From contig NZ_JAHKQT010000023.1 of NCBI RefSeq assembly GCF_018861145.1, positions 310,001-374,000 on the forward strand: DNA of 64,000 nucleotides, written 5' to 3'. The notes under the pieces are model-generated. The model searched no databases and was not told the origin of the DNA. It saw nothing but the letters and a program-made list of their open reading frames with translations. This document shows positions 17,956 to 40,216 of this stretch, piece after piece. How positions within the stretch are numbered: position 1 is the first letter of the stretch; each line of letters starts with the position of its first letter. The DNA comes from Poseidonibacter lekithochrous. Lineage in GTDB: Bacteria; Campylobacterota; Campylobacteria; Campylobacterales; Arcobacteraceae. A program made the translations under genes and the position numbers.

Positions 17956-18031
17956 TGGCGACCCCGGCAAGATTTGAACTTACGTCATCAGGAGGAAATC
18001 CTGAGGTCCTTGGCCGCTAGACGACGGGGTC
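17956..18031 (-). tRNA. tRNA-Glu (anticodon TTC)
   Basis: This is a complete 76-nt cloverleaf including an encoded CCA end. The acceptor stem GACCCCG/CGGGGTC is perfect, the D-arm is of tRNA-Glu type (GTCTAGCGGCC), and the T-arm is GTAAG-TTCAAAT-CTTGC. The anticodon stem TCAGG/CCTGA encloses the loop ATTTCCT, giving anticodon TTC. The loop is unusual: position 37 is C instead of the normal A, and A32/T38 can pair. The discriminator is G, as in other Glu tRNAs. It stands alone between the phn control region and an unrelated gene. The flanks 17853-17955 and 18032-18174 hold no gene. Confidence 0.87.
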
Positions 18032-37984: not shown

Positions 37985-38059
37985 ACTTTATTTTAATTAA
38001 ATATATATTTATCATAGCTTATTTCGATATAGTACTAAGCAAAAAATAGAAGGATGAAT

Positions 38060-38479
38060 ATGTCAATAAAAGAAAATCAAAATGTAACTTTAAACTATGA
38101 ATTAAAACTTAATGACGAAATAATAGATACAAATATAGATAAAGATCCAATATCATTTCTTTATGGTTCAGGACAGATAATAAATGGTTTAGAATTAGGA
38201 ATAAAAGATATGAAAGAAGGTGAAACTAAAATCATAAAAGTAAGTCCTAAAGATGCCTATGGCGAATATGATGAAAAACTTTCTGAGATTGTTGATATTT
38301 CTGAATTTGAAGGAATTGACTTACAAATTGGAATGGTTTTAGAAGCTGAAAATGACAGAAAAGAACCTATTAGAGCAACTGTAACTGATGTAACAAAAGA
38401 ACATGTTACTGTAGATTACAATCACCCCTTAGCAGGTTGTGAGTTAGAATTTAAAGTTATTATAAAATCAATTATCTAA
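38060..38479 (+). CDS. FKBP-type peptidyl-prolyl isomerase (SlyD-like)
   Basis: At 139 residues it has the SlyD arrangement: a split FKBP domain with an inserted chaperone flap. Motifs are PISFLYGSGQIINGLELGI, GETKIIKVSPKDAYGEYD and VDYNHPLAGCELEF. There is no His-rich tail, unlike E. coli SlyD. I start it at ATG 38060-38062, which has AAGGA 5 nt upstream. An ATG at 38054 overlaps that site. Its last 12 nt overlap the convergent selenothioredoxin gene. Confidence 0.92.
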   Translation: MSIKENQNVTLNYELKLNDEIIDTNIDKDPISFLYGSGQIINGLELGIKDMKEGETKIIKVSPKDAYGEYDEKLSEIVDISEFEGIDLQIGMVLEAENDRKEPIRATVTDVTKEHVTVDYNHPLAGCELEFKVIIKSII

Positions 38480-38845
38480 TAAATAAGTTTTAGCACTTTG
38501 CTTTATTAAAGCAGGTGTTTTAACGCCAACTTCCCTTTCAATGATTTCATCATCTTTAAAATAAATCAAAGTAGGAATCACTCTAACACTAAATTCTTTT
38601 GCTAAACTTTTTTGTTTATCAATATCCACTTTATAAATTACAATATCATCTTGCTTGTTTTTATTATAAATTGTTAAGCTTTCACCTAAAGCCTTACAAG
38701 CTGATCAAGTTTGTGAATAAAAGTCTAGTATTACTTTTTTGCCAATTGTTTTTTCTTCAAAGTTTTCTTGAGTTAAATCTTCAAAGGCAAAAAGTATACT
38801 ATTGAAAAAGAATAAAGATACAAATACTAGTAATTTAATTTTCAT
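38468..38845 (-). CDS. Secreted thioredoxin-like selenoprotein (UxxC active site)
   Basis: The frame runs from ATG 38843-38845 (AAAGGA 5 nt upstream) to TGA 38468-38470. It is open apart from one TGA at 38705-38707, codon 47. Read as selenocysteine this gives 125 residues: a signal peptide (about 1-20), DFYSQT-U47-SACK, a thioredoxin beta strand YKVDID, and the cis-proline motif VIPTLIYF (P91). U47 occupies the place of the first cysteine in WCxxC, with C50 as the partner. A SECIS-like hairpin starts just downstream. The gene begins 9 nt after gdhA. A nonsense mutation of a Cys codon is the alternative, but the rest of the gene is intact. Sec machinery genes are not in the window. Confidence 0.82.
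38671..38699 (-). promoter_or_regulatory. Bacterial SECIS-like hairpin after the in-frame TGA
   Basis: On the reverse strand, TTGTAAGGCTTT pairs with AAAGCTTAACAA. This gives 11 base pairs with one bulged G (38692) and one bulged A (38674), and the loop AGGTG (38687-38683). The loop starts 17 nt after the TGA. As I remember the E. coli fdhF element, its AGGUCU loop also starts 17 nt after its UGA, and the GGU is what SelB reads. Confidence 0.75.
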
Positions 38846-38854
38846 ATGATTCCT

Positions 38855-40216
<1,362 letters not shown>

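Follow-up and report, generated by a model that had tools for sequence, protein, structure and literature searches.

A predicted exported selenocysteine thioredoxin in Poseidonibacter lekithochrous and its clade of Sec and Cys homologs in the Arcobacteraceae

Thioredoxins with selenocysteine (Sec) at the first position of a UxxC motif are tabulated as a selenoprotein family (pfam00085, representative WP_010956703.1) and listed among the verified ones (PMC9312934, PMC13188914); they had already been counted in the Sargasso Sea (PMC1088965) and in 2006 (PMC1794560). For the Epsilonproteobacteria, PMC4607533 includes one earlier annotated Sec-thioredoxin and a short apical SECIS hairpin similar to the one presented below. 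The bacterial SECIS element is a hairpin located immediately 3' of the UGA, with a small apical loop containing a conserved G (PMC1088965, PMC4607533).

The gene described here is located in a stretch of 64,000 nucleotides (the window) from the genome of the marine bacterium Poseidonibacter lekithochrous and very probably encodes an exported thioredoxin selenoprotein, whose UGA at codon 47 would be read as Sec by SelB via a hairpin; selenium incorporation is predicted, and the periplasmic site, the reductase direction and the DsbD partner are putative. The sequence evidence consists of a Sec/Cys exchange, the decoding machinery, a conserved hairpin, selection downstream of the UGA and the thioredoxin fold. 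With the UxxC family the protein has in common PF00085, a single Sec placed first in UxxC and a SECIS hairpin after the Sec codon, while in a comparison with WP_010956703.1 made by description it differs in having a predicted signal peptide and a likely periplasmic location. It also belongs to a separate Arcobacteraceae clade with USAC, UGSC, UPAC and UYAC motifs and with Cys paralogs. The epsilonproteobacterial protein comes from the same phylum and is likewise a Sec-thioredoxin, the likeness being one of annotation (PMC4607533). The CPPC-type periplasmic thioredoxins of the Arcobacteraceae resemble the window protein in length, signal peptide and domain (mostly 35–50% identity), but have Cys in place of Sec, CPPC in 54 out of 58 cases and no GGU loop. 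The DsbD gamma domain, TsoB and other proteins of this type share with it the thioredoxin fold and a redox motif, their models giving weak domain-level matches far below the NCBIfam cut-offs. The literature search found no paper describing this gene or its Arcobacteraceae clade. The UxxC thioredoxin as a kind is, however, already established and verified elsewhere, so that the original prediction overstated the novelty; the less ordinary parts are the exported clade and a paralog that has apparently only recently returned to Cys and whose SECIS is still intact. The features of the locus are as follows.

38845..38468, minus strand: Sec-thioredoxin gene, 125 codons plus terminal TGA (translated with TGA=U)
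38786..38845, minus strand: predicted N-terminal signal peptide, residues 1–20, MKIKLLVFVSLFFFNSILFA, judged by eye
38707..38705, minus strand: codon 47, in-frame TGA, predicted Sec; TGA or TGT/TGC in 81/81 homologs
38696..38698, minus strand: Cys50, resolving Cys of UxxC, invariant in alignment A2
38671..38699, minus strand: bacterial SECIS-type hairpin, 11 pairs with an A.A internal loop (fold, covariation, leave-out covariance model)
38683..38687, minus strand: apical loop AGGUG, starting 17 nt after the UGA
38570..38581, minus strand: VIPT, cis-proline motif, with P91 invariant in alignment A2
38855..40207, minus strand: gdhA-type glutamate dehydrogenase (PF00208 and PF02812), upstream of the Sec-thioredoxin gene
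38054..38479, plus strand: FKBP-type peptidyl-prolyl isomerase (PF00254), convergent

Translation with TGA=U gave MKIKLLVFVSLFFFNSILFAFEDLTQENFEEKTIGKKVILDFYSQT-U-SACKALGESL...RVIPTLIYFKDD...TYLLDN followed by the terminal TGA, with the TGA of codon 47 as the single internal stop. The gene had been described as intact apart from this codon, which proved correct; the minus strand, missing from that description, is added here. Its further claim, that the TGA occupies the place of the first active-site Cys upstream of a VIPT motif, agrees with the flanking residues FYSQT-U-SAC-K, in which U47 and Cys50 are three residues apart (U47-S-A-C50). The N-terminus, conserved in alignment A2, has by eye a short basic start, a hydrophobic core and a small residue preceding F21, and the protein is likely exported to the periplasm. 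The adjacency to gdhA was also borne out, the gdhA stop and the thioredoxin start being separated by 9 nt, while the isomerase gene overlaps the thioredoxin gene end by 12 nt. In Poseidonibacter ostreae the linkage with the isomerase is kept, but the upstream gene encodes a fumarylacetoacetate hydrolase family protein and the linkage with gdhA is not conserved; gdhA is therefore a non-essential partner. In genome G004, where the ortholog of the window gene has Cys, a gene starting with MKIEVFYDKQCPFCNLY (L011 2498-2851) and located a few genes further downstream looks like a DCC-type thiol oxidoreductase.

Homologs were drawn from 104 Arcobacteraceae genomes and aligned. Among the 81 aligned sequences the codon 47 column contained TGA in 22 genes (distributed over 20 genomes), TGT or TGC in 59 and nothing else, and TGA was absent elsewhere inside them; the finding of any other residue, named in advance as a refutation, did not occur. 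An additional TGA gene, with the motif UHSC, was present outside the Arcobacteraceae in a genome from another family of the order (G418). Formally, a gene that is ordinary except for an in-frame stop counts as disrupted, and the stop could reflect a nonsense mutation or a sequencing error in a dying gene. This explanation is refuted by the comparative data and its probability is practically negligible: the TGA recurs at the same codon in the 22 genes from 20 genomes and in the one outside the family, without other internal stops, the downstream part is under selection (see below) and the hairpin covaries. Other disruptions, which had also been named as a possible refutation, were not seen in close relatives of the window gene. 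Three Cys genes seem to contain internal TAG stops; these fall at residues 114–118, at the C-terminal end, and look like ordinary gene ends. The closest TGA ortholog, from P. ostreae (94% identity; L010/L039), gave a dN/dS of 0.032 for the part 5' of the TGA and of 0.084 for the part 3' of it; the latter is therefore translated and selected. The terminal TGA was considered as a second Sec codon and rejected: no hairpin match was found there, and two orthologs sharing the same gene end (G002 and G004) have TAA at that place. In genome G002, moreover, a Sec-thioredoxin gene is in tandem with a divergent gene encoding a Cys thioredoxin with a CDIC motif (L110; G002:C1:911450-912218).

The original prediction had placed a bulged hairpin with an AGGTG loop 17 nt past the TGA, and it was recovered by RNAfold as UUGU-A-AGGCUUU[AGGUG]AAAGCUU-A-ACAA, with a 1x1 A.A internal loop and -8.4 kcal/mol; as a single sequence, this fold was not markedly more stable than expected from its composition (z -0.89). 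Among 19 different TGA sequences, pairing was preserved in 91.9% of the cells, and in three apical pairs both partners had changed, in 18 cells altogether (UA/CG, GC/AU). The covariation score reached 0.293 against 0.186 in shuffles (0/500), with slid partners at 0.190 or below. Pairing alone was rejected as a criterion, since in the same columns the AT-rich Cys homologs also pair in part (8.2 of 11 pairs versus 10.2). The case for the hairpin rests instead on the loop motif, the covariation and the model scores, given the weak single-sequence z and this partial pairing. All 22 TGA genes had AGGTA, AGGTG, GGGTC, GGGTT, AGAGC or AGAGA as the loop, whereas AGCAA, GGCAA or TGCAA predominated among the Cys genes.

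No SECIS was found by Rfam in the window, and a covariance model was therefore built from the TGA homologs. Trained on all TGA sequences, it gave only two matches in the whole genome, the window gene and its Cys paralog. When the window gene and its two closest relatives were left out of training, the window gene still scored 59.4 bits (E 1.5e-11) against 16.8 bits for the next best match in the window, and the unseen G418 gene scored 52.7 bits (E 1.1e-9). The Cys homologs remained at or below 33 bits with the leave-out model, the single exception being the paralog of this genome with its complete hairpin. The hairpin has also left its imprint on the protein: at position +7 from Sec, 20 of the 22 Sec proteins carry Gly, whereas 37 of the 58 Cys proteins carry Ala. 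Among known structured RNA families, the window yielded only a tRNA-Glu (TTC), at 17956-18031 on the minus strand.

The genes needed for decoding, whose absence had been named as a third possible refutation, are all present in this genome: selD, selC (a tRNA-Sec with TCA anticodon), selA and selB form one locus of about 6 kb on contig C9. In this locus (L112 1678-7397; G000:C9) selD is of the Cys form, and one nitroreductase-like and one regulator-like gene are located between selD and the others. The same contig also encodes a formate dehydrogenase whose Sec position is encoded by TGA (IDHQARIUHSS). This alpha-type gene (G000:C9:79383-80231; L147), with its in-frame TGA (ARIUHSS) and a 5-bp hairpin with a GGGGU loop, represents a second selenoprotein of this genome. 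A TGA thioredoxin occurred in 20 Arcobacteraceae genomes, 19 of which also had selA, the exception (G006) being an 86% complete MAG. The association of TGA with selA was significant across all 104 genomes (p 0.003); within the genomes having the thioredoxin family it pointed the same way without reaching significance (p 0.27), because most such genomes have selA. An elongation-factor-like match with eight in-frame TGA codons in an 85% complete MAG (G083:C19:425-1303) perhaps comes from a contaminant contig with another genetic code.

Near-cognate readthrough of UGA occurs in bacteria. A near-cognate tRNA might accordingly insert another amino acid, such as Trp or Cys, at this codon, or the codon might serve as a regulated truncation point, in either case without selenium. 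No result obtained here favors such a reading, and it is very improbable in view of the replacement of TGA in homologs solely by Cys and never by Trp or another residue, the SECIS-type loop tied to the TGA and the full Sec machinery in the genome. Taken on the same comparative grounds, the Sec reading of the active-site UGA is strongly supported, as the original prediction had proposed, by the 81/81 codon column, the Sec machinery, the downstream dN/dS of 0.08 and the covarying hairpin; the incorporation of selenium is predicted from them.

The best family matches of the window protein were PF00085 (68.3 bits, above the gathering cut-off of 23.5) and TIGR01068, the NCBIfam equivalog for TrxA, where the score of 75.6 bits did not reach the cut-off of 96.8; the protein is therefore assigned to the thioredoxin family, yet not classed as canonical TrxA. 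None of the NCBIfam models attained its cut-off. Structure prediction confidently gave a thioredoxin fold (mean pLDDT 87.3), with low pLDDT at the N-terminus (residues 1–4 and 10–18), and the nearest structure was the H. pylori Trx 6bkv (TM 0.77/0.89). The genome also encodes a 582-aa DsbD in which all three domains are present.

In the proposed mechanism, the product would be an exported selenoprotein with a thioredoxin fold. UGA47 would be decoded by SelB with Sec-tRNA-Sec, the hairpin just 3' of it keeping SelB at the ribosome, and readthrough would yield the full-length precursor of 125 residues, which the signal peptide would direct to the periplasm, where Sec47-x-x-Cys50 would be its redox center. 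Sec47 may be the attacking nucleophile, with Cys50 resolving the mixed selenenylsulfide, and the protein would most likely function as a disulfide reductase recharged by DsbD. Given the signal peptide recognized by eye, the Sec-x-x-Cys center and the complete DsbD in the genome, a periplasmic disulfide reductase fed by DsbD is the most economical reading, its catalytic direction, partner and substrates being putative.

The functional step alone admits a different interpretation, namely that Sec is inserted but the protein works in the periplasm as an oxidase or isomerase, or else supplies reducing equivalents to a dedicated peroxidase or methionine sulfoxide reductase. The Sec proteins have UGSC, UPAC, UYAC and USAC motifs, different both from CPPC, found in nearly all Cys relatives (54/58), and from the CGPC of canonical thioredoxin, which is compatible with such roles, as are the TIGR01068 score below the equivalog cut-off and the inspected neighborhoods, where no conserved partner gene for the thioredoxin was found. 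Against this stand the best matches to PF00085 and TIGR01068, the retained cis-Pro and the presence of DsbD, and we consider these roles rather unlikely compared with that of a DsbD-fed reductase.

After masking of the Sec/Cys column, a tree was built whose root was not inferred and many of whose branches are unresolved; in it, all 23 Sec genes fell in one group of 26 together with three Cys genes, and the Sec/Cys label required four changes. This likely reflects one gain of Sec followed by three returns to Cys, in G084, in G004 and in the paralog of this genome. In the G004 ortholog of the window gene, which has TGT, the hairpin has decayed to below the reporting limit. The Cys paralog of this genome (G000:C25:48360-48713; L019 1495-1872), with TGT at the Sec position, reads TGTCCATCTTGTAAGGTTTTAGGTAAAAACTTGACAA, compared with TGACCATCTTGT... 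and the same hairpin in G004; its SECIS-type hairpin is complete and scores 65 bits. The TGT in the paralog is apparently the result of a very recent Sec-to-Cys change. It is fairly probable that the exported Sec-thioredoxin clade had a single Cys-to-Sec origin in the Arcobacteraceae and their relatives with at least three reversions, one of them so recent that the TGT paralog in the same genome keeps a complete SECIS hairpin.

Genes for Sec-thioredoxins are easily missed in annotation, and the window gene may be recorded as truncated or absent, because no NCBIfam model reaches its cut-off on it. The clade records Sec-to-Cys changes in thioredoxins. If the present reading is true, the TGT paralog and the Sec gene would form a natural before-and-after pair for the benefit of Sec and the decay of SECIS, and, with a Sec gene and a just-reverted Cys paralog in one genome, the cost and benefit of selenocysteine would be directly testable.
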